From Burkholderiales bacterium (GTDB lineage Bacteria; Pseudomonadota; Gammaproteobacteria; Burkholderiales; Burkholderiaceae_C): a DNA stretch of 64,000 nucleotides. This document shows, in pieces, positions 905 to 48,145 of this stretch; within the stretch, counting starts at the first letter, position 1, and the number at the start of each line of letters is the position of its first letter. The notes under the pieces were generated by a model, which saw only the letters and a list, made by a program, of their open reading frames with translations, had not been told where the DNA came from and did no database searches. The position numbers and the translations under genes were made by a program. The stretch lies in assembly GCA_016191525.1 (NCBI GenBank), contig JACPOK010000033.1:310001-374000 (forward strand), read 5' to 3'.

Positions 905-1297
905 ATGACTGCATTGACTATGAAATTGATAGCGGCCCACGCACAGCCAGAGCGCTCTGCAGGCCAAAACGTCACCCAGATTTCGAATGACGCGGACCCC
1001 CGGGCCGTTTCGCTCGAGGGTGTCCATGTCATCGAACTGAACTTCCCCAAGTTCGCCGACGGCCGCGCCTTCAGCCAGGCCTTCCTGCTGCGCCGCCGCC
1101 TGGGCTTCAAGGGCGATATCCGCGCCACCGGAGAAGTGCTGGTGGACCAGCTGGTGCAGATGCAGCGCACGGGCTTTTCCAGCGCCGTGCTGCGCGCCGA
1201 CCAGGACGTTGCCTTCGCGCAGCGCCAGTTCGACCGCTATGCGCAGTTCTACCAGGGAGACGCCGTGGACACCGCGCCGTTGTTCGCACATGGCTGA
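905..1297 (+). CDS. DUF934 protein of the sulfite reduction operon
   Basis: 130-residue DUF934 protein, a small family almost always encoded next to cysI and cysH in proteobacteria and thought to assist sulfite reduction; the biochemical role is unknown. The conserved core begins near residue 40 (VHVIELNFPKFADGRAFSQ) and runs through LGFKGDIRATGEVLVDQ. The N-terminal ~24 residues (MKLIAAHAQPERSAG and flanks) do not look like the family. They are encoded by copy A of the repeat described at 917-982, so this N-terminus appears to be repeat-derived. The gene starts directly after the cysI-like stop and overlaps cysH by 8 bases, which indicates translational coupling. Confidence 0.85.
   Translation: MTALTMKLIAAHAQPERSAGQNVTQISNDADPRAVSLEGVHVIELNFPKFADGRAFSQAFLLRRRLGFKGDIRATGEVLVDQLVQMQRTGFSSAVLRADQDVAFAQRQFDRYAQFYQGDAVDTAPLFAHG
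917..982 (+). repeat. Copy A of a ~66 bp dispersed repeat, read as protein in the DUF934 gene
   Basis: The 40 bases at 926-965 match copy C (27871-27910) at 32 of 40 positions without gaps, and align gap-free with copies B (19572-19637) and D (47356-47421). Shared blocks are TTGATAGC, CCACGCA and GCGCTCTGCAGGCC. The element begins with a small inverted repeat of the form (G)CTAT...ATAGC. Here it encodes residues ~5-26 of the DUF934 protein, in the same reading frame used by copy C. Confidence 0.7.
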
Positions 1298-1928
1298 AAT
1301 CATGGAAAGAGGCATAGCCCTCGCGGAAGTCAACGCCACACTCGGCCGTGATGCACAGGGCCTGGTGGAGTGGGCCATCGGCCTGGGCAAGCCCGCGATC
1401 GTCACCACCAATTTCCGCCCCTTTGAAGCGGTGATCCTGCACATGGTCACGCGCGCGAAGCCTGACGTGCCGGTGGTCTGGATGGACAACGGCTACAACA
1501 CCGAGGCCACCTACCGCTTTGCCGACGAGGTCACGCGGCAGCTGCAGCTCAACCTGCGCATCTTCGTGCCGCGCCGCTCGCGTGCGCACCGCGAAGCCGT
1601 GGAGGGAGCAGTGCCGGCGCTGGATGACCCGCGCCACGCGGCCTTCACCGAGGAAGTGAAGCTCGAGCCGTTCGCGCGCGCCCTGCGCGAGACGGCGCCC
1701 CGCGTCTGGTTCACCGCGCTGCGGGCCACCGACACCGCCGTGCGCGCGCAGATGGACCCGGTCTCCATCAACCCGGACGGCCTGATCAAGGTCGCGCCGC
1801 TGCTGCACTGGTCGTCGAAGGACTTGCACGAGTACTGCCAGGCGCACGGCCTGCCCAATAACTTCGACTACGTGGACCCGACCAAGGGCGAAGACAACCG
1901 CGAATGCGGATTGCACCTGGAGCACTGA
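1290..1928 (+). CDS. cysH: Phosphoadenylyl/adenylyl-sulfate reductase, short form
   Basis: 212-residue PAPS-reductase family protein that reduces activated sulfate to sulfite using thioredoxin. The adenylyl-binding fold is visible in AIVTTNFRPFEAVILHM and VVWMDNGYNTEATYRFADE. The C-terminus ends in ECGLHLEH, which carries the single catalytic cysteine. I find no paired CC motifs, so the [4Fe-4S] cluster of APS reductases is not expected. It is also shorter than the ~244-residue E. coli CysH and lacks the usual stretch before the ECGLH box. The start was set at ATG 1290, which overlaps the DUF934 end; longer upstream starts are out of keeping with the family. It lies 4 bases before cysD. Substrate preference (APS or PAPS) cannot be read from sequence alone. 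Confidence 0.85.
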   Translation: MAEIMERGIALAEVNATLGRDAQGLVEWAIGLGKPAIVTTNFRPFEAVILHMVTRAKPDVPVVWMDNGYNTEATYRFADEVTRQLQLNLRIFVPRRSRAHREAVEGAVPALDDPRHAAFTEEVKLEPFARALRETAPRVWFTALRATDTAVRAQMDPVSINPDGLIKVAPLLHWSSKDLHEYCQAHGLPNNFDYVDPTKGEDNRECGLHLEH

Positions 1929-1932
1929 CCGT

Positions 1933-2865
1933 ATGAACGCCCGCACCGAACCCCAGCTGCTTGCCCACCTGAGCAACCAGCACCTGGACGCGCTGGAGGA
2001 AGAGACCATCTTCATCCTGCGCGAAGTCGCCGCTGCCTTCGAGCGCCCCACCCTGCTGTTCTCGGGCGGCAAGGATTCGCTGGTGATGCTGCGCTGCGCC
2101 GAGAAGGCCTTCGGCGCGGGCCGGATTCCCTACCCGCTGCTGATGATCGACACCGGCCACAACTTCCCGGAAGTCACCGCCTTCCGCGACTTCCGCGCGA
2201 AGGAGCTCGGCGCCGAGCTGATCGTGCGCAGCGTGGAAGACTCCATGAAGCGCGGCACCGTGCGCCTGGCCCACCCCGGCGAGTCGCGCAACGTGCACCA
2301 GTCGGTCACGCTGCTGGAAGCCATCGAGGAATTCCGCTTTGATGCGCTGATCGGTGGCGCCCGCCGCGACGAGGAAAAGGCCCGCGCCAAGGAGCGCATC
2401 TTTTCGCACCGCGACGGCTTCGGCCAATGGCAGCCCAAGGCCCAGCGGCCCGAGCTGTGGACCCTGTTCAACACCCGCCTGCAGCCGGGCGAGCATTTCC
2501 GCGTGTTCCCGATCTCCAACTGGACCGAGCTGGACGTGTGGCAGTACATCGAACGCGAGAACATCGCCCTGCCTTCCATCTACTACGCGCACCAGCGCCA
2601 GGTGATCGAGCGCAAGGGCCTGCTGGTGCCGGTGACCGAGCTCACCCCGGCGAAAGACGGCGAGGAGGTCGTCACCCGCACCGTGCGCTTCCGCACCGTG
2701 GGCGACATCACCTGCACCTGCCCGGTGGAAAGCCCCGCGGCCAACGCCGCCGAAGTGGTGGTCGAGACCTTGACGGTGGAAGTCAGCGAGCGCGGCGCCA
2801 CCCGCATGGACGACAAGACAAGCGACGCTTCGATGGAGAAGCGCAAGAAAGACGGGTATTTCTGA
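1933..2865 (+). CDS. cysD: Sulfate adenylyltransferase subunit 2 (ATP sulfurylase, small subunit)
   Basis: 310-residue CysD, the catalytic subunit of heterodimeric ATP sulfurylase, which makes adenylyl sulfate from sulfate and ATP. The PP-loop ATP pyrophosphatase motif SGGKDS is near residue 44, followed by LLMIDTGHNFPE, IGGARRDEEKARAKER and the family C-terminal ending MEKRKKDGYF. Its stop codon overlaps the cysN start (TGATG), which matches the need for equal amounts of the two subunits. It follows cysH by 4 bases, so cysI, DUF934, cysH, cysD and cysN form one transcription unit. Confidence 0.96.
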   Translation: MNARTEPQLLAHLSNQHLDALEEETIFILREVAAAFERPTLLFSGGKDSLVMLRCAEKAFGAGRIPYPLLMIDTGHNFPEVTAFRDFRAKELGAELIVRSVEDSMKRGTVRLAHPGESRNVHQSVTLLEAIEEFRFDALIGGARRDEEKARAKERIFSHRDGFGQWQPKAQRPELWTLFNTRLQPGEHFRVFPISNWTELDVWQYIERENIALPSIYYAHQRQVIERKGLLVPVTELTPAKDGEEVVTRTVRFRTVGDITCTCPVESPAANAAEVVVETLTVEVSERGATRMDDKTSDASMEKRKKDGYF

Positions 2866-4112
2866 TGGACGCGCTGAAATTCATCACCTGCGGCTCGGTC
2901 GACGACGGCAAGAGCACGCTGATCGGCCGGCTGCTGGTGGACAGCAAGGCCGTGCTGGCCGACCAGCTGGCCGGCGTGCAGCGCTCGGGTGAAACCGACC
3001 TGGCCCTGCTGACCGACGGCCTCTCGGCCGAGCGCGAGCAGGGCATCACCATCGACGTGGCCTACCGCTACTTCGCGACGCCCGGGCGCAAATTCATCAT
3101 CGGCGACGCGCCGGGCCATGAGCAGTACACCCGCAACATGGTGACGGCCGCCTCCAGCGCCGACGCCGCCGTGGTGCTGGTGGATGCCACCAAGCTTGAC
3201 TGGAAGAATCCCGGGCTGGAGCTGCTCCCCCAGACCCGCCGCCACTCGCTGCTGGTGAACCTGCTGCGCGTGCGCTCCATCGTGTTCACGGTGAACAAGC
3301 TGGATGCCGTCGAGGACCCCGCCGCCGCCTTCAACAACATCAGCGGCGCGCTCCAGGCGTTCGCCTCGGCCGCGGGTATCGCCGTGCGCGCCATCGTGCC
3401 GATCTCGGCGCTCAAGGGCCACAACGTGGTGGAAGCCGAGCCGGGCTGGTGCGGCTACGACGGCCTGTCGCTGCTGCAGCTGCTGGAGCAGCTGCCCGTG
3501 ACCGGCGCCGAGACCGAAGAAGCCTTCTCGTTCCCCGTGCAATGGGTGGAGAAGTTCTCCTCGTCCGCGGAAACGAAGCAGGGCCGCCGGGTGTTCTGGG
3601 GCCGCGTGGCCACGGGCGCCGTGCGGCCGGGCCAGCAGATCACCGTGCTTCCCAGCGGGCAGACCGCCACCGTGGCCCAGGTGCTGGACCACGCCCGCGT
3701 GCCGAAGGACGTTGCCGCCGGCCACAGCGCGGGCATCGTGCTGGACCGCGAGGTGGACGTGTCGCGCGGCGACTGGCTGCTGGCGCCGGGCGTCTTCGAG
3801 CCTTCGCGCGAGATTTCGGCCACCATCGCCTGGATGGACGACGAGCCCCTGGTCGCCGGCCGCACTTATTTCGCCCTGCACGGCCACCGCTGGGTGAAGG
3901 CCAAGGTCAAGCGCATCGTGCACAAGCTGGACATCAATACCCTGGCCGAACAGGACGCCGACCACCTGGAGCCCAACTCCATCGGCCACGTCGAACTGGC
4001 GCTGCAGGAGCCCCTGGCCACCCTGCCCTACGCCCGCTCGCGGATGCTGGGTTCGATGGTGCTGGTGGACACGGCCAGCCACAAGACCGCAGGGGCTGTG
4101 CTGGTGCGCTGA
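2865..4112 (+). CDS. cysN: Sulfate adenylyltransferase subunit 1 (GTPase), without APS kinase domain
   Basis: 415-residue GTPase subunit of ATP sulfurylase, which couples GTP hydrolysis to adenylyl sulfate formation with CysD. Translation-factor GTPase motifs are in order: GSVDDGKST (G1), the switch segment [20 protein letters not shown] (G3) and NKLD (G4), followed by two beta-barrel domains. The protein ends at about 415 residues with [10 protein letters not shown], so there is no fused CysC (APS kinase) domain, and no separate cysC is in this window. It is the last gene of the sulfate operon; a promoter for the ferredoxin gene follows. Confidence 0.96.
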
Positions 4113-4134
4113 GCGCCGGGGCAGGCGCACAGCT

Positions 4135-4140
4135 AAAATC
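4135..4140 (+). promoter_or_regulatory. fdxA: Candidate -10 box (TAAAAT) for the ferredoxin gene
   Basis: TAAAAT lies 28 bases before the fdxA start codon, just after the cysN stop. Position and sequence suit a sigma-70 -10 element. I see no strong TTGACA-like -35 hexamer. Confidence 0.45.
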
Positions 4141-4168
4141 AAGGGTTTTCCCCCGCACGAACTACAAC

Positions 4169-4498
4169 ATGACCCACGTCGTCACCGAATCCTGTATCCG
4201 CTGCAAGTACACCGACTGCGTGGACGTCTGCCCTGTGGACTGCTTCCGCGAAGGGCCCAACATGCTGGTGATCGACCCCGACGAGTGCATCGACTGCGCC
4301 GTGTGCATCCCGGAGTGCCCGGTGAACGCGATCTACGCCGAGGAAGACGTGCCCGCCGACCAGATGAACTTCATCAAGCTCAACGTCGAGCTGTCGCAGC
4401 AGGCCGGCTGGAAGAGCATCACCAAACGCAAGCCCGCGCCCGAAGACGCGGATGAATGGAAGGACAAGGCCGGCAAGCTGTCGGAACTGGTCCGATAA
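4169..4498 (+). CDS. fdxA: 7Fe ferredoxin FdxA
   Basis: 109-residue seven-iron ferredoxin carrying one [3Fe-4S] and one [4Fe-4S] cluster, a low-potential electron carrier in the cytoplasm. The N-terminal cluster segment [14 protein letters not shown] and the second segment [12 protein letters not shown] hold the cluster cysteines, and the rest matches the FdxA family through the C-terminal extension [15 protein letters not shown]. Only 6 bases separate it from the ferredoxin-NADP reductase gene downstream, so the two probably work as a redox pair. Its place next to a siroheme reductase operon suggests, but does not prove, that it feeds electrons to sulfite reduction. Confidence 0.95.
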
Positions 4499-4504
4499 GG
4501 AATC

Positions 4505-5605
4505 ATGGAACCTCAACTCAATCAAGAAGTGGTCAAGACTGCCGCCGCCCACGACGGGCCCATCGAAACCGATGCCGTGATCGTCGGCGCCGGCCCCGTG
4601 GGCCTGTTCCAGGTGTTCGAGCTGGGCCTGCTGGAAATCAAGGCCCACGTGATCGACTCGCTGGCCTACCCCGGCGGCCAGTGCGTGGAGCTGTACCCCG
4701 ACAAGCCGATCTATGACATCCCGGCCGTGCCCGTGTGCACCGGCCAGGAGCTGACGGACAACCTGCTCAAGCAGATCGAGCCTTTCGGCGCGACCTTCCA
4801 CTTCGGCCAGGAAGTGACCACGGTGAAGAAGCAGGACGACGGCCGCTTCTTCGTCGAGACTTCCAAGGGCACGAGCTTCCTCACAAAGACCATCTTCATC
4901 GCCGGCGGCGTGGGTGCCTTCCAGCCGCGCCTGCTGAAGGTGGACGGCCTGGACAAGTTCGACGGCACGCAGCTGCATTACCGCGTGAAGAACCCGGCGG
5001 AGTTCGCCGGCAAGAACCTCGTCATCGTCGGCGGCGGTGATTCGGCGCTGGACTGGGCGCTGAACTTCGTGAACGAGGGCCCGAACAAGGCCGAGAGCGT
5101 GATCCTGGTGCACCGCCGCGACGGCTTCAAGGCGGCGCCCGCTTCCGTGGCCAAGATGCACGAGCTGTGCGAGGCGATGGAAATGCAGTTCATCGTCGGC
5201 CAGGTGACCGGCTATGAAGAGAAGGACGGCAGGCTGGTGGGCGCCAAGGTGACGGGCTCCGACGGGGTCACGCGCGTGGTGCCGCTGGACGTGCTGCTCG
5301 TGTTCTTCGGCCTGTCCCCCAAGCTGGGCCCGATCGCCGAGTGGAGCCTGGAGATCGAGCGCAAGCAGGTGAAGGTGGACACGGAAAAGTTTTCCACCAA
5401 TATCCCCGGCATCTTCGCGGTGGGCGACATCAACACCTACCCCGGCAAGAAAAAGCTGATCCTCTCGGGCTTCCATGAATGCGCGCTGGCCGCGTTTGGC
5501 GCCGCGCCCTTCATCTTCCCGGACAAGAAAATCCACCTGCAGTACACGACCACGTCGCCCAAGCTGCACAAGGTGCTGGGCGTGGAGACGCCGGTATTCG
5601 ATTGA
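4505..5605 (+). CDS. Ferredoxin-NADP reductase, thioredoxin-reductase-like type
   Basis: 366-residue flavoprotein of the thioredoxin-reductase-like ferredoxin-NADP reductase class, which moves electrons between NADPH and ferredoxin. The FAD-binding GAGPVG motif is near residue 28, followed by AYPGGQC, and the NADPH-binding [13 protein letters not shown] is near residue 177. The second FAD motif [16 protein letters not shown] is near the C-terminus. The redox-active CxxC of true thioredoxin reductases is absent, which separates it from TrxB. It is preceded by fdxA at 6 bases with an AAGGA ribosome site and followed by a clear terminator at 5633-5658. Confidence 0.92.
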
Positions 5606-5632
5606 CGCGCATCAAGATCGCGCGACAAATAC

Positions 5633-5658
5633 AAAAGGCCCGCCGATGCGGGCCTTTT
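5633..5658 (+). terminator. Rho-independent terminator after the ferredoxin reductase
   Basis: Perfect 11-base arms AAAAGGCCCGC (5633-5643) and GCGGGCCTTTT (5648-5658) around a CGAT loop. It closes the fdxA-reductase unit and separates it from the riboswitch-controlled receptor. Confidence 0.85.
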
Positions 5659-5667
5659 GCGTTGGGC

Positions 5668-5673
5668 TAAAAT
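5668..5673 (+). promoter_or_regulatory. Candidate -10 box (TAAAAT) before the TPP riboswitch
   Basis: TAAAAT in the context GGGCTAAAAT lies between the terminator and the riboswitch, about 22-27 bases before the aptamer begins. No clear -35 hexamer is seen. Confidence 0.45.
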
Positions 5674-5694
5674 TCGCCGGTTCGCAAGAACTCT

Positions 5695-5776
5695 TCCGCT
5701 AGGGGTGTTGCCGCGCAAGCGGCGACTGAGAAAGTCCCTTTGAACCTGATTGAGGTAATCCTCGCGCAGGGAAGCA
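5695..5776 (+). promoter_or_regulatory. TPP riboswitch (THI element)
   Basis: The conserved thiamine pyrophosphate aptamer is readable on the plus strand: AGGGGTG at 5701, CGACTGAGA at 5723-5731, then CCCTTTGAACCTGATTGAGG from 5736, GTAATCCTCGCG, and the closing CAGGGAAGC at 5767. A short variable stem (CCGCGCAAGCGG, 5711-5722) sits between the two conserved halves. About 80 bases separate the aptamer from the GTG start of the TonB receptor. That stretch contains a GGCAATTGCC palindrome (5805-5814) and the ribosome site AAAGGA. Binding of TPP would be expected to shut down the receptor gene. Confidence 0.92.
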
Positions 5777-5857
5777 AGCTCTCCACGGCGCTCTTTCTCC
5801 AGGGGCAATTGCCGTCACCAGCTGGGCCGACCTGCCACATGCGTTAAAGGAAACGAC

Positions 5858-8017
5858 GTGGCAAATCTGAGAAAATTTTACGAAGCAAAAGTGCCTGCGA
5901 AGCGCACCCGCTGTGCTTACGCAGCTATTCTTTTGATAGCGGGCACGGCGCACGCGCAGGATGCGACGCTGAAACCTGTGACAGTCAACGAACGAAGCGC
6001 GGCGCCGCAGGCCGATGTCACCGGCTTTGGCGACACACCGCTGAAGGAGGTGCCGATTTCGGCCACGGTGGTCAACCGCGCGCAGCTGGACGCCATCGGC
6101 GCGCGCCGTCTGGCCGACCTCACGCAGTTCGATTCGTCCGTGACCGACGCGTACAACTCGCCGGGCTACTGGGACTTCCTGTCCATCCGCGGCTTCACGC
6201 TGGACAACCGCTTCAACTTCCGGCGCGAGGGGCTGCCCATCAGCGCCGAAACCTCGATCCCGCTGGACAACAAGGAGCGCATCGAAATCCTCAAGGGCAC
6301 CAGCGGCATCCAGGCCGGCACCAGCGCGCCGGGCGGGCTGGTGAACTACGTGGTCAAGCGCCCCACCGAGCACGACCTGCGGGAAGTGCGGCTGGAGTAC
6401 AGCAGCCGCGCCAGCGTGCTTGGGGCGGTGGACCTGGGCGGGCGCTTCGGCGCCGACCGCGCCTTCGGCTACCGCATCAACGCCGCGCAGGAACAGCTGC
6501 GCCCCACCACCCGCAATGTCGACGGCAGCCGCAGCCTGCTGGCCGTGGCCGGCGACTGGCGCATCAGCCGCGATTCGGTGCTGGAAGCCGAAGTGGAATG
6601 GAGCCACAAGAAGCAGGCCAGCCAGGCCGGCTTCAGCCTGCTGGGCGCGCGGCTGCCCGCCGTGCCCGATCCGCGCCTGAACCTGAACAACCAGGCCTGG
6701 TCGCAGCCGTCGGTGTTTGACGCCATCACGGGCAGCATCCGCTTCGAGCAGGCGATCAACAGCCAGTGGCGCTGGTCGGCCCAGGCCGGCACGCAGCAGC
6801 TGAAGACCGACGACCGGCTGGCCTATGCCTTCGGCTGCGGCGCGGAGAACAACTTCGACCGCTATTGCGCCAATGGCACCTTCGACTTCTACGATTTCCG
6901 CAGCGAAAACGAGCGCCGGCGCCAGGACGCGGCGTCGCTCAACCTCAAGGGCAAGTTCGCCACCGGGAGCGTGGCCCACGAGCTGTCGCTGGGCGTGCTG
7001 ACCAGCCGCGTGCGCAACCGCTTCCAGCTGGAAGCGTTCAACTACGTCGGGGTGGGCAATGTCGCCGGCACGGCCGTGGTGCCGTCCGATGCGTCGTTGA
7101 ACGACCAGAACACCAACCGCACCGAGCGCACCGTGGAGCTGTCCGCGCAGGATGCGATCCGCTGGAACGAGAGCTTCACCACCTGGCTGGGCCTGCGCCA
7201 CACGCGGCTGGACCGCGACAGCGTGCGCACCAACGGCTCGCGCCCCACCACCTACAGCGACGGCTTGACCACGCCGTGGCTGGCGGCCAGCTACAAGCTG
7301 GGCGCAAGCACGCTGGCCTATGCGAGCTATGGCGAGGGCGTCGAGTCGCAGATCGTGCCCAACCGGGCTGCGCAATACACCAACGCCGGCGTGGCGCTGC
7401 CGGCGCTGAAGTCAAAGCAGTGGGAGATCGGCCTGAAGGGCGGGCAGGACGCTTTCGGCTGGCAGCTGGCCTGGTTCGACATCAAGCGGCCCATGAGCAA
7501 CCTGGACGCCTGCAACCGGCTGGGCATCACACCCTGCCTGGGCGCGTATGACGGCAGCGCGGTGCACCGCGGCCTGGAAGGCAATGCGCAATGGGCGCAG
7601 GGCCCGTTGCGGCTGGCCGGCGGCGTGACGCTGCTGGACGCCAAACGGCAAGGGAGCACGGCCGAGCCGGCGACCAACGGCAAGCGCCCGACCAACGTGC
7701 CCGACTGGGTGGCCCGCGCGCAGGCCGCCTGGAAATTCGCTTCGATGCCAGGCCTGGAACTGCAGGGCCAGATGTCGCACGAGGGCCGGCGCGCCGTGCT
7801 GCCGGATGAGTCGGTCATGCTGCCCGCTTGGACACGCTTCGATGCCGCGCTGCGCTATGAAACCAAGGTGGCGGGCACGCCCACCACCTGGACTTTGGGC
7901 GTGGACAACCTGTTCAACAAGCGCTACTGGAAGGAATCGCCCTACCAGTTCGGCCACGTTTACCTGTACCCCGGCGCGGTGCGCTCACTGCGCCTGGCCG
8001 TGACCGCCGCGCTCTGA
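5858..8017 (+). CDS. TonB-dependent outer membrane receptor under TPP riboswitch control (likely thiamine or precursor uptake)
   Basis: 719-residue TonB-dependent receptor of the siderophore-receptor-like class. It has an N-terminal signal sequence (hydrophobic YAAILLIAGTAHAQ, cleavage after AHA), a plug domain (ISATVVNRAQLDAIG, FLSIRGFTLDN, ERIEILKGTSGIQAG, GGLVNYVVKRP) and a C-terminal 22-strand barrel containing WTLGVDNLFNKRYW near the end. The GTG start at 5858 is supported by AAAGGA 7 bases upstream. The sequence class alone would suggest ferric siderophore uptake. The TPP riboswitch directly upstream instead points to thiamine, a thiamine phosphate or a pyrimidine precursor as substrate; TonB receptors behind THI elements have been predicted before in proteobacteria. 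No inner-membrane thiamine transporter is adjacent. Confidence 0.88.
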   Translation: MANLRKFYEAKVPAKRTRCAYAAILLIAGTAHAQDATLKPVTVNERSAAPQADVTGFGDTPLKEVPISATVVNRAQLDAIGARRLADLTQFDSSVTDAYNSPGYWDFLSIRGFTLDNRFNFRREGLPISAETSIPLDNKERIEILKGTSGIQAGTSAPGGLVNYVVKRPTEHDLREVRLEYSSRASVLGAVDLGGRFGADRAFGYRINAAQEQLRPTTRNVDGSRSLLAVAGDWRISRDSVLEAEVEWSHKKQASQAGFSLLGARLPAVPDPRLNLNNQAWSQPSVFDAITGSIRFEQAINSQWRWSAQAGTQQLKTDDRLAYAFGCGAENNFDRYCANGTFDFYDFRSENERRRQDAASLNLKGKFATGSVAHELSLGVLTSRVRNRFQLEAFNYVGVGNVAGTAVVPSDASLNDQNTNRTERTVELSAQDAIRWNESFTTWLGLRHTRLDRDSVRTNGSRPTTYSDGLTTPWLAASYKLGASTLAYASYGEGVESQIVPNRAAQYTNAGVALPALKSKQWEIGLKGGQDAFGWQLAWFDIKRPMSNLDACNRLGITPCLGAYDGSAVHRGLEGNAQWAQGPLRLAGGVTLLDAKRQGSTAEPATNGKRPTNVPDWVARAQAAWKFASMPGLELQGQMSHEGRRAVLPDESVMLPAWTRFDAALRYETKVAGTPTTWTLGVDNLFNKRYWKESPYQFGHVYLYPGAVRSLRLAVTAAL

Positions 8018-8035
8018 GCGGGCCGGAAATGACGC

Positions 8036-8041
8036 TATAAT
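8036..8041 (+). promoter_or_regulatory. -10 box (TATAAT) of tRNA-Asn
   Basis: Perfect TATAAT ending 10 bases before the mature tRNA 5' end, with a GC-rich stretch following it, as common for stable RNA promoters. The -35 region (around 8013-8018) is weak. Confidence 0.6.
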
Positions 8042-8051
8042 CTGAGGCTGT

Positions 8052-8127
8052 TCCTCGATAGCTCAGTTGGTAGAGCGCCGGACTGTTAATCCGTAGGTCC
8101 CTGGTTCGAGCCCAGGTCGAGGAGCCA
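8052..8127 (+). tRNA. tRNA-Asn (anticodon GTT)
   Basis: 76-base tRNA with acceptor stem TCCTCGA pairing with TCGAGGA, D-arm GCTCAGTTGGTAGAGC, anticodon arm CGGACTGTTAATCCG with GTT at 8085-8087, T-arm CTGGTTCGAGCCCAG, discriminator G and an encoded CCA end. Confidence 0.97.
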
Positions 8128-8134
8128 GAATTGA

Positions 8135-8164
8135 AAAGGGCCAGCGCGAAAGCGCTGGCCCTTT
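8135..8164. terminator. Terminator between tRNA-Asn and the pseudopilin gene
   Basis: Perfect 13-base arms AAAGGGCCAGCGC and GCGCTGGCCCTTT closing on a GAAA tetraloop. T or A runs flank both sides, so it can serve the tRNA on the plus strand and the convergent pseudopilin gene on the minus strand. Confidence 0.85.
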
Positions 8165-8170
8165 AGTTTG

Positions 8171-8725: not shown

Positions 8726-8863
8726 GGCCGATATTCTTGAACGGCGGGACGGCCTTCTGCGGCGATTTCCGACGGTCGGCGCGTCCGCACTGATCAACGC
8801 GAGCGATGGTGTGCACGCGCATCCCGCGACTAGAACTTACGGCGTATGAATGGCCAACTGGAC

Positions 8864-17935: not shown

Positions 17936-21420
<3,485 letters not shown>

Positions 21421-21713
21421 GATCAACCTTTGTGAATTTCTCTGACGAAAAACCTAGGGTGCCCCTTCGCAGACTCTTGTGGAGCTGTGTCGGGACTTAG
21501 AACCCAAAACCATGGGCGGGCCTATCGCACCGCCGGATCAGGGCTCGTTTGCCTTTTGACTTGCAAGCCGCATTATCGCACTGCAGCACGCAGACTTGCC
21601 TGAAACCCGTCGCCGCGATGCGATAATTTCCGGTTGCCAGCGCCTTTGCGGCCCGCAAACGCGCCCAGAACGAGACAAAACACAGCATCAAGCCGGCACC
21701 CCGGCCCCGACTC
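21421..21713. other. Intergenic region between divergent ilvB and sigma factor genes
   Basis: 293 bases without a convincing gene. It contains the 9-base inverted pair ATTATCGCA (21572-21580) and TGCGATAAT (21619-21627), which gives a GATAAT -10-like box pointing at each flanking gene. A TTGCCT at 21596-21601 lies 20 bases before the plus-strand box, a long spacing. I looked for a branched-chain leader peptide in front of ilvB and found none rich in Ile, Val or Leu. Confidence 0.5.
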
Positions 21714-24924: not shown

Positions 24925-26946
<2,022 letters not shown>

Positions 26947-26948
<2 letters not shown>

Positions 26949-28242
26949 GGCACCAGTGAAAAACAACTCCAATGATTATGTCACCCGGGTATTGACCTGC
27001 GTGGCGGAAGTGCCGGCCGCCGCCTGGAATGCATTGCTGGCGCAGCAGCTTTCGCCCGGCCCCTTCATGCGCCATGAGTACCTGGCGGCGATGGAGCAGA
27101 GCAAAAGCGCCGTGCCCGCGACCGGCTGGACGCCCCGCTTCGTCACGCTGTGGCGCGGCGACGACCTCCATGCGGCCTGCGCCCTCTACCTCAAGGCCCA
27201 TTCGTATGGCGAGTACGTCTTCGACTGGGCCTGGGCCAATGCGTACGAGCAGCACCAGCTGGCCTACTACCCCAAGGCACTGGTGGCGGTGCCCTTCACG
27301 CCGGTGCCCGGCACGCGGCTGCTGGCGCGCGACACGGCGGCACGCGCGGCGCTGGTGCGGGCCCTGCTGGCCTGGTGCGGCAAGGAAAAGCTCTCGTCCC
27401 TTCACCTGCTGTTCGGCGCCGATGAGGATGTGGCCGCGTGCGCCGACGCCGGCCTGATGCTGCGCCACACCGTGCAGTTCCATTGGAAGAATGTGGCCCC
27501 CACGCTCGGCACTGCCGTGCCGTCGCTGCCCCCCGAGGGGGCGCGTCCCGCCTTGGGGCGGCCCGGCGGCGGAACGGGCTGGGCCAGCTTCGACGACTTC
27601 CTGGCCAGCCTGTCCCAGGAAAAGCGCAAGAAGATCCGCCAGGAGCGGCGCAAGGTCGCGGATGCCGGAATCAGCTTCCGTTGGTCCGAGGGGCCGGACA
27701 TCTCCGCCGCCGATTGGGATTTCTTCTACCGCTGCTACGAACGCACCTACCTCGAGCACGGCAACGCGCCCTACCTCACGCGCAGCTTCTTCCGGAGCAT
27801 GGCCAAAGACATGCCGGAGAACTGGCTGCTCTTCGTCGCAGAGCGCGCCGGCAGGCCTGTTGCTACAAGTTTGATAGCTGTCCACGCAGGTTCCGCGCGC
27901 TCTGCAGGCCGATTCCCCTCTGAAATGACGGTGGAAAAGGTTGCCTACGGCCGCTACTGGGGCGCGCTGGAGCGGGTGGACTGCCTGCACTTCGAGGCCT
28001 GCTACTACCAGCCGCTGCAGTGGTGCATCGAGCACGGCTATGCCCGCTTCGAAGGCGGCGCACAAGGCGAGCACAAGATGGCGCGCGCGCTGATGCCGGT
28101 GCGCACCACCAGCGCCCACTGGCTGGCCCACCCGGCGTTCGCGGATGCGGTGGAGCGCTTTCTGGAGCGCGAGGGCCAGGGCATCGCCAGCTACATGGAA
28201 CACCTGGACGAGCGCAGCCCGTTCCGCCAAGGCAAACCCTGA
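26947..28242 (+). CDS. DUF482 GNAT-fold protein with two repeat-derived in-frame insertions
   Basis: 431-residue member of the DUF482 family (GNAT fold, sometimes labelled peptidoglycan biosynthesis/recognition); reaction unknown. Conserved landmarks are PGPFMRHEYLAAMEQS, the HWKN and FDDFLASLSQEKRKKIRQER segments, YGRYWGALERVDCLHFEACY and FEGGAQGEHKMARALMPV. Relatives I recall are about 380 residues. The excess falls in two places: residues ~183-210, a Pro/Gly-rich stretch between HWKN and WASFDDF encoded by a GC-rich hairpin repeat (27511-27575), and residues ~306-327, encoded by repeat copy C. Reading frame is kept through both. Start ATG 26947 overlaps the divergent nadE start. The stop region overlaps a possible ATG of the next gene (TGATG), a lipid acyltransferase. 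Confidence 0.85.
27511..27575 (+). repeat. GC-rich hairpin insertion inside the DUF482 gene
   Basis: Contains CCCCCGAGGGGG (27530-27541) and then GCCTTGGGGCGGC. It translates as a Pro/Gly-rich stretch (PSLPPEGARPALGRPGGG) that interrupts a conserved part of the family between HWKN and WASFDDF. I recall closely similar GC hairpins as dispersed repeats in Comamonadaceae genomes; only this copy is clear in the window. Confidence 0.5.
27862..27927 (+). repeat. Copy C of the ~66 bp dispersed repeat, read as protein in the DUF482 gene
   Basis: Starts GCTACAAGTTTGATAGC and runs through CCACGCA, GCGCGCTCTGCAGGCC and CTCTGAAATG. It matches copy A at 32 of 40 core positions and is read in the same frame: LIAVHA...RSAG here, LIAAHA...RSAG in the DUF934 protein. 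66 bases is exactly 22 codons, so insertion keeps the frame. Confidence 0.75.
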
Positions 28243-39338: not shown

Positions 39339-39344
39339 CCACCC

Positions 39345-41665: not shown

Positions 41666-41670
41666 GCGCC

Positions 41671-42795
41671 CTAGAAGTACCGTGTCACGCCAACCTGCAC
41701 CATGCGGGCACGGAACTTCGCCAGCCCCGGGCTGCCGCCGCCATGCCACGCCCATTCGCTGCGCTGGGTGTAGTGCTCGTACTTGGCATCAACCTGCCAG
41801 TCAGCCCACTGTTTGGCGACCTTGATGCCGAAGGTGCGCGCGCCAAAAGACGCCAGCCGCTGGTCGAAACTGATCGGCTGGCCGGGAGAAAAATCCGCGG
41901 GGATGACCAGCCGCGTGGGAAAGCGCGGGTCCACGTCCACATAGAACTTCGCGGCGCCCTGCGAATACAGCCGCGCGCTGGGCGTCACGGTCCAGCCGGC
42001 CGGCAGGGGCTGCACCCACTCGGCGCCCAGTGTGTGCGCGCGAATGGCAAATGAATCCGAGTAGTAGCGGTAGTTCAGCCGCAGCGTGGCCTCGGGCCCG
42101 TCGAAGTGGTGGTTCCAGCGCGTCACCAGCGAACTGCTGCGGCGCGAGCGCGGCCTGTCGTCCAGCGATTTGTACGGGTCGGAGAAATAGCCGTTGCCGC
42201 GGCCCACGGTCAGGTCGACCTGCGCGATGTCGCGCTGCGTCAGCACCTGGGTGACGCCCAGCAGCACGTCGGTGGTGTTCTTGCGCTCGTCCACCACCAC
42301 CTTGTTGTTCGGCGAGATGCGGTCATTGGCCACGCTCAGGCCACCCCGGAAAGTGGTGTTGCGGTCGTCGGTGGACAGGCTGCCGGTGGCCGAGAGAGCG
42401 CGCGAAACATAGTCCGACTCTGTGGAATAGGCCGCGCCCAGCTTGAGCGTGGCGCCCGGCCAATAGCGCGTGACGCCCACGTCGGCGGCCTTGCGCTTGT
42501 CTTCCAGGCGGGCGGCGCTGCGCTCCACCGTATGGAATGCCGGTGAGGCGCCCGAGATTGAATCCCACACCACCGTGCCGTCAAACGACCAGTCGCCCGC
42601 GAACGGGGTGACCAGCGACAGCGAAGGCGCCCGCACGCGGATGCGGTCCAGCCCGGGCTGCCAGTCGTGGTAATCCAAGTACTTGAAGGCGATGCTGGCG
42701 CGCTCGGGTGGCGTTTCGGCGCAGGCCGGATGCGCGGCCAGCAAGGCGGCGGCAGCCGCCATCAGGCCCGCGGTGGCGGCGTGGTGCTCGCCCAT
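41671..42795 (-). CDS. DUF3570 outer membrane beta-barrel protein
   Basis: 374-residue DUF3570 protein with a signal peptide (GLMAAAAALLAAHPACA). The mature part alternates polar and aromatic strands ending in aromatic Phe (VQVGVTRYF), as in an outer membrane barrel. Near the N-terminus is D-S-I-S-G-A-S-P (residues 78-85), which resembles the D-x-x-S-G-A-T/S target motif of ApbE flavinylation. The start overlaps the DUF4266 stop by one base (TGATG), and apbE follows after five bases. Function is unknown. Recurrence of DUF3570 with DUF4266, a thioredoxin-like protein and ApbE in other bacteria is recalled, not verified here. Confidence 0.88.
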   Translation of the reverse strand: MGEHHAATAGLMAAAAALLAAHPACAETPPERASIAFKYLDYHDWQPGLDRIRVRAPSLSLVTPFAGDWSFDGTVVWDSISGASPAFHTVERSAARLEDKRKAADVGVTRYWPGATLKLGAAYSTESDYVSRALSATGSLSTDDRNTTFRGGLSVANDRISPNNKVVVDERKNTTDVLLGVTQVLTQRDIAQVDLTVGRGNGYFSDPYKSLDDRPRSRRSSSLVTRWNHHFDGPEATLRLNYRYYSDSFAIRAHTLGAEWVQPLPAGWTVTPSARLYSQGAAKFYVDVDPRFPTRLVIPADFSPGQPISFDQRLASFGARTFGIKVAKQWADWQVDAKYEHYTQRSEWAWHGGGSPGLAKFRARMVQVGVTRYF

Positions 42796-43016
42796 CAGTT
42801 GCAGCCGCAGCCGCCCCCACCCACGCCCGAGCCGCCGCGCGCGGCCTCCTTGCTGGTGTAGGTGTGGTCGGAAAAGCGCGCCTCCAGCGGGTCGCTGTCA
42901 AAGCCCATGTCGGGCCGCGCGAGAATCCCTTTCTCCCAGGGCTGCACGGGCGCGCAGGCGGCCAGCAGCGCACACAGCACAGCCGCCAGCGCGGCGCGCG
43001 TTGCCGGCATCGTCAT
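42795..43016 (-). CDS. DUF4266 small lipoprotein with C-terminal Cys-Gly-Cys
   Basis: 73-residue DUF4266 lipoprotein. A signal peptide ends in the lipobox LAAC (about residue 21), followed by PVQPWEKGILARPDM, the conserved core with EARFSDHTYTSKEAARGG, and a striking C-terminus GGSGVGGGGCGCN. The Cys-Gly-Cys pair at the extreme end, after a flexible glycine run, could be a redox-active disulfide or a metal or cofactor attachment point. The gene overlaps the TlpA gene by four bases and the DUF3570 gene by one. Function unknown. Confidence 0.88.
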   Translation of the reverse strand: MTMPATRAALAAVLCALLAACAPVQPWEKGILARPDMGFDSDPLEARFSDHTYTSKEAARGGSGVGGGGCGCN

Positions 43017-43516
43017 GGCTTGCCTTTCAGCGCGGCCTGGATCTGCTCCTCCAGCCGGGCGCGATCGGCGGGCTCGAAGCCGCGGTGCACCGCGATCACC
43101 TTGCCCTTGCGGTCGATCAGCACGCTGCTGGGCATGGCCTTGATCTGGTACATGCGCGGCGAGGCGCCGATCGGGTCGTACGCCACCGCGAAGCCGGCCG
43201 GGACCGCGGCCAGGAATTTCTGCGCGTCCGGTGCCTTCGCATCCAGGTTGATGGCCAGCACCTGCAGGCCCTGGGCCGCGTACTTCGCCTGCATCTCTCC
43301 CATCCAGGGAAACGATTGCCGGCAAGGCCCGCACCATGAAGCCCAGAAGTCCAGGTACAGCAGCTTGCCCTCGAATTGCCTGAGCTTGACCAGCCCTTGC
43401 GGCCCGGTGACCTCGAAGTCGGGCGCCGCGGCACCCACCTCCACCGCACCGCCGGCCAGCGGCACTCCAAGCCCCAACACCAGGGCCAGCGCGCGCAGGC
43501 CGCGGGCGCTGCTCAC
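43013..43516 (-). CDS. TlpA-like periplasmic thioredoxin
   Basis: 167-residue thioredoxin-fold protein of the TlpA/ResA type. A signal sequence (LRALALVLGLGVPLAGGAV) is followed by the active site ASWCGPCRQSFPWM near residue 61, and MPSSVLIDRKGKV carries the cis-proline (as M-P-S). The GTG start at 43516 overlaps the stop of the upstream DUF4214 gene by four bases. The neighbour DUF4266 ends in Cys-Gly-Cys, a plausible redox partner. It may instead serve a cytochrome or general disulfide role, but the tight operon favours a dedicated one. Confidence 0.9.
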   Translation of the reverse strand: MSSARGLRALALVLGLGVPLAGGAVEVGAAAPDFEVTGPQGLVKLRQFEGKLLYLDFWASWCGPCRQSFPWMGEMQAKYAAQGLQVLAINLDAKAPDAQKFLAAVPAGFAVAYDPIGASPRMYQIKAMPSSVLIDRKGKVIAVHRGFEPADRARLEEQIQAALKGKP

Positions 43517-44202
43517 AGGAATGACAGCCCGGACTGCGCCAGCCCGACCAGGCCCACCTGCCCCTGGTTGGCGGACGAAGCGGCCAGCTGGGCGAGGAAG
43601 CTGCCTTGCGCGGCGCCCTGCTCGCTGTTGATCTGCGCGGTGGCTGACGCCAGCGTGCCCGCGTCAGGCGCGGCGCCGTTGACGGTAGTGAGCAGGTAAC
43701 TGGCGATCTGCTGGTTGGTGGCGCCGGGGTTGCCGCCGTTGGCCAGGATGCCCCAGATGTCCAGCCGCATCACCGCCCCGGAGAGATCCTTCATGGTGAA
43801 ACCCTGGTCGAACAGGCCGATCACAGTACCGGCCAGCGGAAGCTTCTGCAGCACGGCCGCACGGCCCAGCACCGCGCCCAGCAGTAGCATGGTCTGCCCG
43901 GCGGACTGCGTGGCGCCCACGTCCAGCGCCACGTTGACATCATTGAAGCGCAGGCGCTCCACGTTCTGCAGGGTCGTAGTTTCGGAGCCCCCGCTGGCAC
44001 CCGAAATGGTGTCCACGAACACCACGCCGGAAGACGAAGACAGGTTGAAGGAAGAGCGCGAGGCCGCGATGACCACCGTGTCGGTGCCGCCCAGCCCATT
44101 GACGAAGTCGGAGCCGCCCAATGGGAAAATCGTGTCGCTCGTGGCGGTGCCGGTGATGTTTTCCGCCGTGCCCGGCCCGAACCGGCCGAAAATGTCTGCC
44201 AT
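43513..44202 (-). CDS. DUF4214 / RTX-like secreted protein
   Basis: 229-residue protein with a hemolysin-type, calcium-binding-like segment (GGSDFVNGLGGTDTVV, residues ~29-44), the usual LQNVERLRFNDVNVALDVG segment, and a DUF4214-like helical C-terminus (GFTMKDLSGAVMRLDIWGIL, ATNQQIASYLLTTVNG). No N-terminal signal is seen, in keeping with type I secretion of such proteins. It also contains D-T-I-S-G-A-S (residues 64-70), close to the motif in DUF3570. It is the first gene of the operon that ends with apbE and overlaps the TlpA gene by four bases. Confidence 0.8.
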   Translation of the reverse strand: MADIFGRFGPGTAENITGTATSDTIFPLGGSDFVNGLGGTDTVVIAASRSSFNLSSSSGVVFVDTISGASGGSETTTLQNVERLRFNDVNVALDVGATQSAGQTMLLLGAVLGRAAVLQKLPLAGTVIGLFDQGFTMKDLSGAVMRLDIWGILANGGNPGATNQQIASYLLTTVNGAAPDAGTLASATAQINSEQGAAQGSFLAQLAASSANQGQVGLVGLAQSGLSFL

Positions 44203-44338
44203 GAAAACCCCTGGGGGAAATGCCTTCCCGGTTTCTGGCCCAATCTGTACAGGGCCGGTGCCGCCGAGGCTAGCCAAAGGGTATTGCCGAGTCAAGACGG
44301 CCCCGGTACCGCAGGGGTAACAAATCAGGAGATTTAGA

Positions 44339-45106
44339 TTGAACTTGCGACTGGAAAACAAATCAGTGATCGTCACCGGCTCGGGCGGCGGCATCGGTGA
44401 AGGCATCGCGATGCGGCTGGCCGCGGAAGGCGCGCAGGTCATCGTCAACGACATCAACGCCGGCATGGGCGAGAAGGTCGTCGCGGCCATCCGGGCCGCG
44501 GGGGGCAAGGCCTCTTTCTTCGCTGGAGACGTCACGAAGTCGGCCGACATGAAGGCGCTGGTGGAAGCCGCCGTGCAGCGGCACGGCAAGCTGGACGTGA
44601 TGGTCAACAACGCCGGCTGGACCCACCGCAACCGCCCCGCGCTGGAGGTGAGCGAGGACGAATTCGACAAGTGTTACGCCGTCAACATGAAAAGCATCTA
44701 CCTGGCCACGGTGCATGCGGTGCCGGTGTTCCGCGCCAACAAGGGCGGCAGCTTCATCAACATCGCCTCCACCGCCGGCGTGCGGCCGCGCCCCGGCCTG
44801 ACCTGGTACAACGGCTCCAAGGGCGCGGTGATCACCACCAGCAAATCGCTGGCGGCCGAGTTGGGGCCCGACAACATCCGGGTGAACTGCATCAACCCGG
44901 TGTTCAACCCCGACACCGGCCTGGCCGCTGAATTCGCGGGCGGGGAAATCAACGAAGCCATCAAGGCCAAGTTCCGCGCCACCATCCCGCTGGGGCGCTT
45001 TTCCACCGCGCTGGACGTAGCCAACGCAGCGCTTTACCTGGCGAGCGACGAGGCCTCCTTCATCTCGGGCGTGTGCATCGAGGTGGATGGCGCGCGCTGC
45101 GTCTGA
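44339..45106 (+). CDS. SDR family NAD(P)-dependent oxidoreductase
   Basis: 255-residue classical short-chain dehydrogenase/reductase. Cofactor motif TGSGGGIGEG is near residue 14; NNAGWTHRNRP, catalytic Ser in FINIASTAGVRPRPG, and the catalytic YNGSK (Y-x3-K) near residue 157 follow. The C-terminus FISGVCIEVDGARCV is typical. It starts at TTG 44339, supported by AGGAG seven bases upstream. Substrate unknown; it may reduce a 3-ketoacyl or sugar compound. It lies 21 bases upstream of moaA but is separated from it by a possible -10 box. Confidence 0.9.
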   Translation: MNLRLENKSVIVTGSGGGIGEGIAMRLAAEGAQVIVNDINAGMGEKVVAAIRAAGGKASFFAGDVTKSADMKALVEAAVQRHGKLDVMVNNAGWTHRNRPALEVSEDEFDKCYAVNMKSIYLATVHAVPVFRANKGGSFINIASTAGVRPRPGLTWYNGSKGAVITTSKSLAAELGPDNIRVNCINPVFNPDTGLAAEFAGGEINEAIKAKFRATIPLGRFSTALDVANAALYLASDEASFISGVCIEVDGARCV

Positions 45107-45114
45107 GGGCGGGG

Positions 45115-45120
45115 GACAAT
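45115..45120 (+). promoter_or_regulatory. moaA: Candidate -10 (GACAAT) of moaA
   Basis: GACAAT ends 7 bases before the moaA ATG in GGGGGACAAT, another case of the short spacing that suggests a leaderless transcript. Confidence 0.35.
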
Positions 45121-45127
45121 AGCACCC

Positions 45128-46243
45128 ATGGCTGAACGCGTGATCCCCCTGATCGACCAGCGCCTTGGCGCGCTGCGCGCCGGCGTGCCCGCGACGCCCA
45201 TCGCAGCCACCGGCCTGCTTTCGGACACCCTGGGGCGGCCGCTGCGCGACCTGCGCATCAGCGTGACGGACCGCTGCAATTTCCGCTGCAGCTACTGCAT
45301 GCCCAAGGAAGTGTTCGACAAGGACTACCCCTACCTGCCGCATTCAGACCTTCTCACCTTCGAGGAAATCACCCGCGTGGCGAAGCAGTTCGTGGCGCAT
45401 GGCGTGCGCAAGATCCGCCTGACTGGCGGCGAGCCCCTGCTGCGCAAGAACATCGAGGTGCTGATCGAGCAGCTGGCTGCCCTGCGCACCGTGGAGGGTG
45501 AGCCGCTGGACATCACGCTCACCACCAACGGCTCGCTGCTGGCGCGCAAGGCCGCATCGCTCAAGGCCGCCGGCCTGCAGCGCGTCACGGTCAGCCTGGA
45601 CGGTCTCCAGGATGACGTGTTCCGCGCGATGAACGACGTGGATTTCCCGGTGGCCGACGTGCTGCGGGGAATAGAGGCAGCCCGCGAGGCCGGCCTCGGT
45701 CCGATCAAGGTGAACATGGTGGTCAAGCGCGGCACCAACGACAACGAGATCCTGCCGATGGCGCGCCACTTCAAGGGCACCGGCATTGTGCTGCGGTTCA
45801 TCGAGTACATGGACGTGGGCGCCACCAACGGCTGGCGCATGGACGAAGTGCTGCCCTCGGCCGACGTGGTGAAGCTGATCAACGCCGAGCTGCCGCTGCG
45901 CCAGCTGGACGCCTCGGCGCCGGGCGAAACCGCTGAACGCTGGGGTTATGCCGATGGCGGCGGGGAAGTGGGCGTGATCAGCAGCGTGACGCAGGCCTTC
46001 TGCGGCGGCTGCAACCGCGCCCGCCTGTCCACCGAAGGCCAGTTGTACCTGTGCCTGTTCGCGTCGCAAGGCTGGGACCTGCGCTCGCTGGTGCGCGGCG
46101 GCGCCGGCGACGAAGAGCTCGCATCGGCCATCGCCCACATCTGGCAGGGCCGCGGCGACCGCTATTCGCAGCTGCGCAGCACCATGCCGCCCGACACGGG
46201 CGGCGGCGCGCGCCGCGTGGAAATGAGCTACATCGGAGGCTAG
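45128..46243 (+). CDS. moaA: GTP 3',8-cyclase (molybdenum cofactor synthesis)
   Basis: 371-residue radical SAM enzyme that, with MoaC, turns GTP into cyclic pyranopterin monophosphate, the first step of molybdenum cofactor synthesis. The SAM-binding cluster motif is CNFRCSYC (near residue 50), SAM binding LTGGEPLLR follows, and the C-terminal cluster motif is [18 protein letters not shown]. The protein ends in the characteristic Gly-Gly. An N-terminal extension of about 30 residues precedes the core, as in many betaproteobacterial MoaA. It heads moaA-mobA-moeA. Confidence 0.96.
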
Positions 46244-46244
46244 T

Positions 46245-46862
46245 TTGACAGGCGCCATAGACAGCAACGACATCACGGGCCTGGTCCTGGCCGGCGGGCG
46301 CGGCTCGCGCATGGGCGGGGCCGACAAGGGCCTGCAGAACTTCAATGGCATGCCGCTGGCGCTGCACACCCTGTTGCGCCTGCAGCCGCAGGTGGGCGCG
46401 ATGATGGTCAATGCCAACCGCAACCTGTCCGCCTACGAATCGTTCGGCGCGCCGGTGTGGCCCGACGGGCTGGCCGACTATGCCGGGCCGCTGGCCGGTT
46501 TCCTCACCGGCATCGAGCGCTGCGAAACATCCTGGCTGGTCACCGTGCCCTGCGACACGCCCCTGTTCCCGGCCGACCTGGTAGCCCGGCTGGCCGAAGC
46601 CGCTGGCCGCGAGGGCGCGGAGATTGCCATGGCCGCGGGCCTGGAGGATGGCCAGCTGCGCACGCAGCCCGTGTTCTGCCTGCTGCGCACCGACCTGCTG
46701 GAAAGCCTGGTGCGCTTCACCCATGGCGGCGGCCGCAAGATTGACGCCTGGACGGCGCAGCACAAGACCGTCACGGTGCCGTTCGACGCCCCCGGCGACG
46801 ACCCGCGCGCCTTTTTCAACGCCAACACGCTGGCCGAATTGCACCAGCTGGAGCAACGGTGA
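46245..46862 (+). CDS. mobA: Molybdenum cofactor guanylyltransferase
   Basis: 205-residue MobA, which links GMP to molybdopterin to form the MGD cofactor used by nitrate reductase and DMSO-reductase-type enzymes. The nucleotide-binding motif [16 protein letters not shown] is at the N-terminus, and [12 protein letters not shown] carries the metal-binding aspartate. It starts at TTG 46245 with GGAGG five bases upstream, one base after the moaA stop. It overlaps moeA by four bases (GTGA). Its presence means the strain uses bis-MGD enzymes. Confidence 0.95.
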
Positions 46863-48145
46863 AAAGCCTGGCGCAGATCGCCGCCGAGCTGCAGGGCTAC
46901 GACCCCAGGGCGCTGCCCGCCGAAGCGGTGAACGACTTCCTGGCACGCTTGGTCGAACCGGTTCAGGAAGTGGAACACGCCGGCATTTTCGAGGCGCTGG
47001 GCCGCGTGCTGGCCGAAGACGTGATCTCGCCCTTCAGCGTGCCGCCGCATGACAACTCCGCCATGGACGGCTACGCCTTCGATGGCGCACAGCTGAAGGC
47101 CGATGCGCCGCTGGTGCTGCAGGTCATGGGCACCGCGCTGGCGGGCAAGGCCTGGCAGGGCGAGGCCGGCGCCGGCCAATGCGTGAAGATCATGACCGGC
47201 GCCATCATGCCGGCCGGCCTGGACACGGTGGTGCCACAGGAATTCGTCTCCGTCCGGGCGGAGCCCGCCGAAGCCATCACCATTCCACCGGGCCTGCTGA
47301 AGCCCGGCGACAACCGCCGCTTCAAGGGCGAAGACCTGATGCAAGGCCAGGCCGCGCTATCAAAAGGAGAGCGGCTTACGCCCGCTGGGTGCGGGCTGGC
47401 GGCCAGTTTGTCTCTGAAAACCCTGCCCGTGAAGCGCAGGCTGAAAGTGGCCTATTTCTCCACCGGCGACGAAATCCTGAGCCTGGGTGAGGCGCCGCGC
47501 GAAGGCGCCGTGTACGACAGCAACCGCTACACCGTGTTCGGCCTTTTGACCCGGCTGGGTTGCGAAGTGATCGACATGGGCGTGGTGCGCGACGACCCCG
47601 CATTGCTCGAAGCCGCCTTCACCGCCGCGGCGGCGAAAGCCGATGCCATCATCACCAGCGGCGGCGTCAGCGTGGGCGAGGCCGACCATACCAAGGCCAT
47701 GATGAAGAAGCTGGGCGACGTGGCCTTCTGGCGGATTGCCATGCGCCCCGGCCGGCCCATGGCCGTGGGCCGCATCGCCTCGGGCAGCCGCTCGTGCGTG
47801 CTGTTCGGCCTGCCGGGCAACCCGGTGGCCGTGATGGTCACCTTCCTGGCCTTTGTTCGCCCCGCCCTGCTGCGCATGATGGGCTGCACCGTGGCACAGC
47901 CGCCGCTGCTGAAGGCGCGCAGCGCCGAAGCCCTGCGCAAGAAGCCCGGGCGGACCGAATACCAGCGCGGCATCGTCAGCACGGCGCCTGATGGGTCTTT
48001 GCAAGTCCGGATCACCGGCAACCAGGGCTCGGGCGTGCTCAGCTCCATGGTGCAGGCCAACGGGCTCATCATGCTGCACCACGCGCAGGGCGACGTAGCC
48101 CGGGGCGATGAGGTCGATGTGCTGATGTTTGAAGGCGCGATCTAG
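46859..48145 (+). CDS. moeA: Molybdopterin molybdenumtransferase
   Basis: 428-residue MoeA, which inserts molybdate into adenylated molybdopterin. Family motifs: [42 protein letters not shown], the MoCF domain [20 protein letters not shown] and the signature [14 protein letters not shown]. It begins at GTG 46859 overlapping the mobA stop. Codons at 47356-47421 match the dispersed repeat (copy D), in a linker-like part of the protein. Aligned from memory with E. coli MoeA that stretch has the same length, so the repeat would have replaced rather than lengthened the gene. Confidence 0.95.
47356..47421 (+). repeat. Copy D of the ~66 bp dispersed repeat, inside moeA
   Basis: Starts GCTATCAAAAGGAGAGC and ends TTTGTCTCTGAAAAC. 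40 of 66 positions match intergenic copy B without gaps, including the exact 12-base block TTTGTCTCTGAA. The reading frame of moeA through it differs from that in copies A and C, so the encoded residues ([15 protein letters not shown]) are unrelated to theirs. Confidence 0.55.

Follow-up and report, generated by a model that had tools for sequence, protein, structure and literature searches.

A family of short dispersed repeats was analysed in a 64,000-nucleotide (nt) stretch of DNA (assembly GCA_016191525.1, contig JACPOK010000033.1, positions 310,001-374,000 of the forward strand). This stretch is called the window, and its own coordinates are used throughout. The majority core of the family is GCTATnnATTTnATAGCTGCCCACGCACAGCTGGnGCGCTCTGCAGGCCTTTTTnCCTCTGAA, 63 bases long. 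Gene prediction used a codon-usage gene finder whose training set was the window. As shown in Table 1, copies A, C and D lie within genes of the DUF934, FemAB_like and MoeA types, and copy B is intergenic. A preliminary description of this DNA had reported these four copies, and we confirmed that all of them are present and align with one another without gaps. A and C were alike at 43 of 66 positions, with 80% likeness over a 40-base core. B and D were alike at 40 of 66 positions and shared the exact block TTTGTCTCTGAA. It also proved correct that A and C share a reading frame and that D is read in another. However, a fifth copy on the minus strand had been overlooked. Copy A, given earlier as 917-982, was family-like only to about position 965, and bases 966-982 read as native.

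Of the five window copies, all but D were among the 147 genome copies from which a weight matrix was then built. The five copies stood apart from all other window positions on both strands, where the next-best score was -55.1. Profile model R1 was trained on alignment A1, in which copies A-D are present; it found the same five copies in the window, after which the scores fell from 50.1 to 18.6 bits. Conservation of the residues in distant orthologues had been named beforehand as evidence against a repeat family. MoeA proteins from other families of the order do conserve the residues under copy D, and a chance match was considered for this reason; it was ruled out by the left-out matrix score. 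Copy D agreed with the consensus at 40 of 61 positions, whereas 29 relatives agreed at 17-27 and had matrix scores of -71 to -140. None of the copies was named by Rfam at curated thresholds, and no clear terminal inverted repeats were seen by eye in the aligned ends.

The genome of the window (G000) comprises 5.00 Mb in 40 contigs, with a guanine plus cytosine (GC) content of 67%. A search of this genome with R1 gave 150 matches, all with E <= 3.7e-7; scoring covered the best 150 of 5,414 candidates. At least 152 copies are present, because the fifth copy and D are missing from the 150 matches listed. Fifty-two copies lie wholly inside predicted genes, about a third of the total, 42 lie over a gene end and 58 are intergenic. 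A blastn search with copy C gave at least 40 matches including itself (best 40 of 105 candidates scored). These results bear out the earlier claim of a dispersed family that is coding, in readable frames, in many unrelated genes. Both strands were used evenly (79 versus 73), and spacing on the larger contigs was like random. For the 148 copies that span the whole model, pairwise identity averaged 0.67, with a nearest-neighbour value of 0.82 and a maximum of 0.92, giving no sign of recent copying. FemAB rows of congeners G005 and G018 were identical to Ramlibacter records, so the genus is probably Ramlibacter. At E <= 1e-9, G000 was the only carrier among 60 genomes of the genus (best 82 candidates scored per genome, stricter filters). 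In nine genomes, four of congeners and five reached via named Comamonadaceae loci, no match with E <= 1e-5 was found among the best 150 candidates each, with G000 as the positive control. Plasmid and phage collections gave no match to copy C, and the plasmid collection gave none to a Polaromonas-type copy.

We also looked for half-formed copies in 468,558 bases of the genome. These were chosen around copies, whose flanks sample intermediates together with the window. No position had 33-37 of 58 consensus matches; the background reached at most 32, and copies had 38-53. The single narrow peak of the copies probably reflects one old burst. The lack of half-formed copies in about 0.47 Mb indicates that the copies arose in one step. 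It is very improbable that the 63-base pattern evolved at each site by point mutation as a DNA motif under selection. Such convergence would fit the nearly conserved length, the kept protein and the near invariance of certain positions (a list chosen by score). The two-peaked distribution without intermediates in these 468,558 bases speaks against it, as do the AT-rich third positions that each site would have had to gain although the genome has 67% GC, the lack of strand preference and the random-like spacing.

The intragenic copies were read in a restricted set of frames. Same-strand phase 0 was used by 24 copies, opposite-strand phase 2 by 20, opposite-strand phase 1 by five and same-strand phase 2 by three, and the other two frames by none. 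Two of the six frames account for 44 of the 52 copies, and in these two the element translates as alanine-rich, mostly stop-free peptides. Opposite-strand phase 0 was open in 126 of 148 copies and was used 0 times; even use of the open frames would place about 14.5 of 51 copies there. The same-strand phase 2 copies are D and two others, and in all three the consensus TGA TAG is altered, in D to readable sequence. Of the 42 copies over gene ends, 23 lie in phase 2 where a gene on the same strand ends, so that its stop codon falls inside the element.

To compare lengths, 46 of the 52 intragenic copies were aligned with orthologues from four congeners, with at most five matches listed per copy. 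Separate analyses were made for A, C and D, and a further three copies were dropped because the gene ends 10 residues or fewer past the element. All 46 copies had at least one element-free orthologue among the congeners, with both flanks aligned. The best matrix scores of the orthologues listed were -31 to -104, that is, no element. The net length, relative minus query, was -1.99 amino acids (aa) on average (n=155, standard deviation 5.19), and the full element length (-21 ± 2 aa) was seen in none of the 155 comparisons. The median net length was zero in 14 copies and within 2 aa in 24. In six copies the net length was zero in each comparison with a relative, with four relatives each for HscA and PurK. 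Over whole matches (145 high-scoring segment pairs, 44 copies), the mean was -2.16 aa and the lowest value -18. Length differences were of similar size between query and relatives (mean 3.99, median 3 aa) and among relatives (3.75 and 2 aa). Copy D caused no length change in the conserved MoeA protein and no gap against the solved MoeA structure 1fc5 across the stretch. Copy A occupies about the length of the variable N-terminus of the congeners, where LIAA-like residues are native; the start of this DUF934 gene is uncertain between ATG 905 and ATG 920, the latter inside the element and chosen by the gene finder. The question had been raised whether the segments are absent from the orthologues of relatives. 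Copy C does add residues, whereas A is near congener length and D is length-neutral.

Ten of the 46 segments were compared with NCBIfam profiles (LeuS, PepN, MutL, RlmD, HscA, PurK, ThiL, a dihydrolipoyl enzyme, adenosylcobinamide kinase and KefC). The numbers of residues and profile positions were nearly equal for PurK (141/141), HscA (141/142), KefC (142/139), PepN (139/135) and LeuS (124/121). Against solved structures, the element region was 4 residues longer in the TruB segment and 6 residues longer in the glucose-6-phosphate isomerase segment. As judged from these alignments, the majority of copies left protein length almost unchanged, and others, C among them, gained part of the element's length.

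Next, we examined what was kept inside the replaced stretch. In the element columns, the query shared 950 of 2866 aa with its relatives (33.1%), compared to 1183 of 3355 among the relatives (35.3%) and 8.5% by chance. Codon positions 1, 2 and 3 had identities of 0.51, 0.55 and 0.275 in 34 alignments without gaps, and of 0.31, 0.26 and 0.25 in in-phase controls. The third-position identity of 27.5% inside the element, compared to 25.3% in the control, indicates no shared ancestry; outside the element it was 0.60. These results indicate that the DNA is of element descent and that the residues are native-like. In copy C, for example, the 5' third GCTACAAGTTTGATAGCT encodes ATSLIA, and most congeners encode A(S/T/C)SLI(A/G) through other codons. 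Intragenic copies departed slightly more from the consensus than intergenic copies (agreement 0.771 versus 0.813), and the departure was clear in just one nonsynonymous column class (0.742 versus 0.802, P 0.0017). Later adaptation as the sole source of the native-like residues was rejected, because this departure seems too small for 33% identity. Much of the likeness would thus have been present at the start, through either a survival filter or guidance by similarity.

Taken as sequence comparison, these data show a discrete family that arose in one step, is found in one genome of the genus, mostly replaces native codons in a length-neutral way and is biased in frame. Our reading, to which we give about even weight, is that the 63-base family spread by overwriting stretches of resident DNA of about its own length, probably in a single burst within the species lineage, and not by plain insertion. 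Most simply, a single-stranded copy of the element would anneal at a gap or fork and be copied in, resulting in short-patch replacement of resident DNA. In genes, survival would be limited to sites where the frame is open and the new peptide resembles the old one, and the 44 survivors in the two alanine-rich frames would be the outcome. The family would have been silent since the burst, with even ageing of its copies. The single-stranded patch donor, the selection filter, the single burst and the same origin of the intergenic copies are what we infer. A fuller version is put forward tentatively: a mobile family may propagate by overwriting, with its two mostly stop-free alanine-rich frames replacing about 21 codons of core genes (leuS, moeA, hscA, purK, truB and pepN types) by native-like residues with little length change, so that it stays hidden where insertional repeats would kill.

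Several observations weigh against overwriting. The spread could be tied to no enzyme, template locus or junction signature, and no close sister genome showed a fresh event. The element has no covarying stem: RNAalifold gave four pairs without compensation, and mutual information over full-length copies reflected mainly neighbouring-base dependence. In 26 of 41 copies, the relatives agreed more with one another inside the element than with the query, and the protein-guided orthologue alignments are biased towards matches at codon positions 1 and 2. Lengths were not always neutral. Six of the 46 copies were longer than their relatives by a median of at least 7 aa, up to 15, and the glucose-6-phosphate isomerase copy was longer than its congeners by 10-11 aa. 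The copy C stretch has 45 residues, compared to 29-35 in 21 of 24 congeners and 37-44 in the other three, a surplus of 10-16 aa and 1-8 aa, respectively. Three of the ten profile segments clearly exceeded their profiles, namely RlmD (142/123), adenosylcobinamide kinase (141/128) and ThiL (135/128), and the MutL and dihydrolipoyl segments matched theirs in part. The RlmD congeners are as long as the query, so this surplus is common to the genus. Intergenic spacers in congeners ranged from -6 to thousands of bases, and several were near zero where G000 has about 70, which fits insertion there. For convergent genes, 19 pairs were queried and nine had a neighbouring pair among the matches listed, with spacers too variable to tell.

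These surpluses and the near-zero spacers are what would be expected if an insertion like that of a miniature inverted-repeat transposable element or a Rickettsia palindromic element (RPE) added 63 bases and the genic survivors later lost native loop residues, restoring length. We regard insertion plus trimming as possible, though unlikely. In its favour, many of the gene sites are loops or linkers that vary, with relatives 35% alike inside the element and 73% outside. However, no comparison showed the full element length, six copies and the conserved MoeA site showed no net change, and native-like residues within the element were far above chance.

The native-like residues could also be explained if the element converted DNA that was already similar to it, such as A[IT]xxIA codons or GCN periodicity. 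Pre-existing similarity would then account for position, frame and residues without a selection filter. A and C begin on native LIA-like codons, and the excess identity is strongest at the 5' end. The FemAB site, which holds divergent relatives of the element in other Comamonadaceae, points the same way: by a motif and length rule, 29 of 110 rows carried element-like DNA, and a quick tree gave 12 changes, three of them forced by starred branches. In a set of 38 rows, G000 was the lone carrier at this site. Nevertheless, third positions, which escape protein selection and where homology should be visible, had no clear excess (0.275 versus 0.253), and the relative-relative profile was equally high in the 5' third. 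We consider homology-guided gene conversion an unlikely explanation.

Table 1. Repeat copies and neighbouring features of the window
Feature	Position	Strand	Matrix score	Context and basis
DUF934 gene with copy A	905..1297	+		PF06073, E 4e-35
Copy A	917..965	+	+55.9	Start of DUF934 gene, codons 5-21 if ATG 905 is the start; same-strand phase 0
TPP (thiamine pyrophosphate) riboswitch	5691-5789			Rfam RF00059
Fifth copy	5872..5943	-	+69.8	52.6 bits (R1); between TPP riboswitch and TonB-dependent receptor gene
TonB-dependent receptor gene	predicted from 5978			Pfam PF00593 and gene prediction
ilvH RNA motif	19498-19565	-		Rfam RF02993
Copy B	19572..19637	+	+82.3	Intergenic; between TPP-enzyme gene and ilvH RNA motif
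TPP-enzyme gene	19636-21426	-		Pfam; read as acetolactate-synthase-like
FemAB_like (DUF482) gene with copy C and a second, different repeat	26860..28242	+		PF04339, E 1.4e-131
Second, GC-rich repeat in FemAB_like gene	27496..27573	+		About 29 codons; outer limits approximate; split matches at residues 210/240, alignment
Copy C	27862..27927	+	+83.3	Codons 335-356 of FemAB_like gene; same-strand phase 0
moeA with copy D	46859..48145	+		PF03453, PF00994, PF03454
Copy D	47356..47421	+	+40.7	Inside moeA; same-strand phase 2

Other repeat-like features were observed near these sites. Between 5691 and 5943, the TPP riboswitch comes first and then, on the opposite strand, the fifth copy, both upstream of the TonB-dependent receptor gene. 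The second repeat in the FemAB_like gene adds its length, unlike most copies of the main family, and is absent from most of the congeners compared. It gave matches of 82-88% on nine plasmid records of Azoarcus, Variovorax, Acidovorax, Rhodoferax, Burkholderia and Paraburkholderia, and had many short matches elsewhere in congeners. In moeA, at about 47245-47270, congeners G002 and G004 have a VRPEPVEGPASTGSAR-type peptide where the window gene has VRAEPAEA, perhaps another repeat family. A VRAEPVEAPSTSSGRT peptide that resembles it lies shortly downstream of the element copy in the MutL segment of G000 (contig C39, 461 kb). Congener G020 has a different repeat-like peptide (SPLPQAGEG / PSPASGRG type) in linkers orthologous to G000 C36:16139 and C36:174420; the same linkers may attract unrelated repeats. 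In an NAD-synthetase-type gene of other Comamonadaceae, model R2, built from other genera, found element-like DNA at one fixed site in 22 of 74 loci (e.g. L176, 3279-3346), with the protein length unchanged. This site was not used as evidence because five training sequences of R2 come from it.

If replacement is indeed a way for repeats to spread, normal-looking protein lengths and alignments may have kept a class of dispersed elements from notice, and some 50 genes in a single genome would hold borrowed codons. Two questions would become open to test: the frequency with which bacterial proteins are shaped by short-patch replacement with ectopic DNA, and the reason for the acceptance of foreign coding DNA by certain loops and linkers, among them the FemAB site, which is also occupied in other genera. 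Short-patch double illegitimate recombination by single-stranded DNA in Acinetobacter exchanges a short piece of resident sequence for foreign or ectopic DNA and leaves the length nearly unchanged. To our knowledge, it is a source of sporadic mutation events and has not been a route for the spread of a repeat family. A literature search that included the mechanism found no title or abstract start describing the present family, with subscription papers mostly outside its scope.

Among known repeats, RPEs have a described length of 100-150 nt and are said to insert (PMC10969869, PMC4316617). By these accounts they resemble the present family in being short dispersed repeats, intergenic as well as in frame in unrelated genes, and read as a characteristic peptide. 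The preliminary description had drawn this parallel; it holds for the coding copies and fails for most of them as to added length. The present family also seems to be set apart from the described RPEs by its size of about 63 bp, its lack of a covarying palindrome and its replacement of native codons. The betaproteobacterial repeat element (BRE; Hot et al. 2011, PMC3110155) is described as about 90 bp long, 69% GC in Bordetella, sometimes tandem and present in many genera. It is likewise a short dispersed repeat of Betaproteobacteria, including Comamonadaceae, mostly intergenic and with some copies wholly within coding sequences. Compared to that description, the present family appears to be shorter (63 bp), less GC-rich (57% in copy C) and matched in one species of its genus; the range of the second repeat at 27496-27573 fits that described for BRE better than that of the main family does. 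Repetitive extragenic palindromes and their REP-associated tyrosine transposases share with the family the many short dispersed copies, and the genome has one Y1_Tnp gene. They differ in that no family copy lies within about 1.5 kb of this gene, that no covarying hairpin is present and that about a third of the copies are intragenic. The replacement of codons with little change in protein length appears to differ from the behaviour of known gene-invading repeats.

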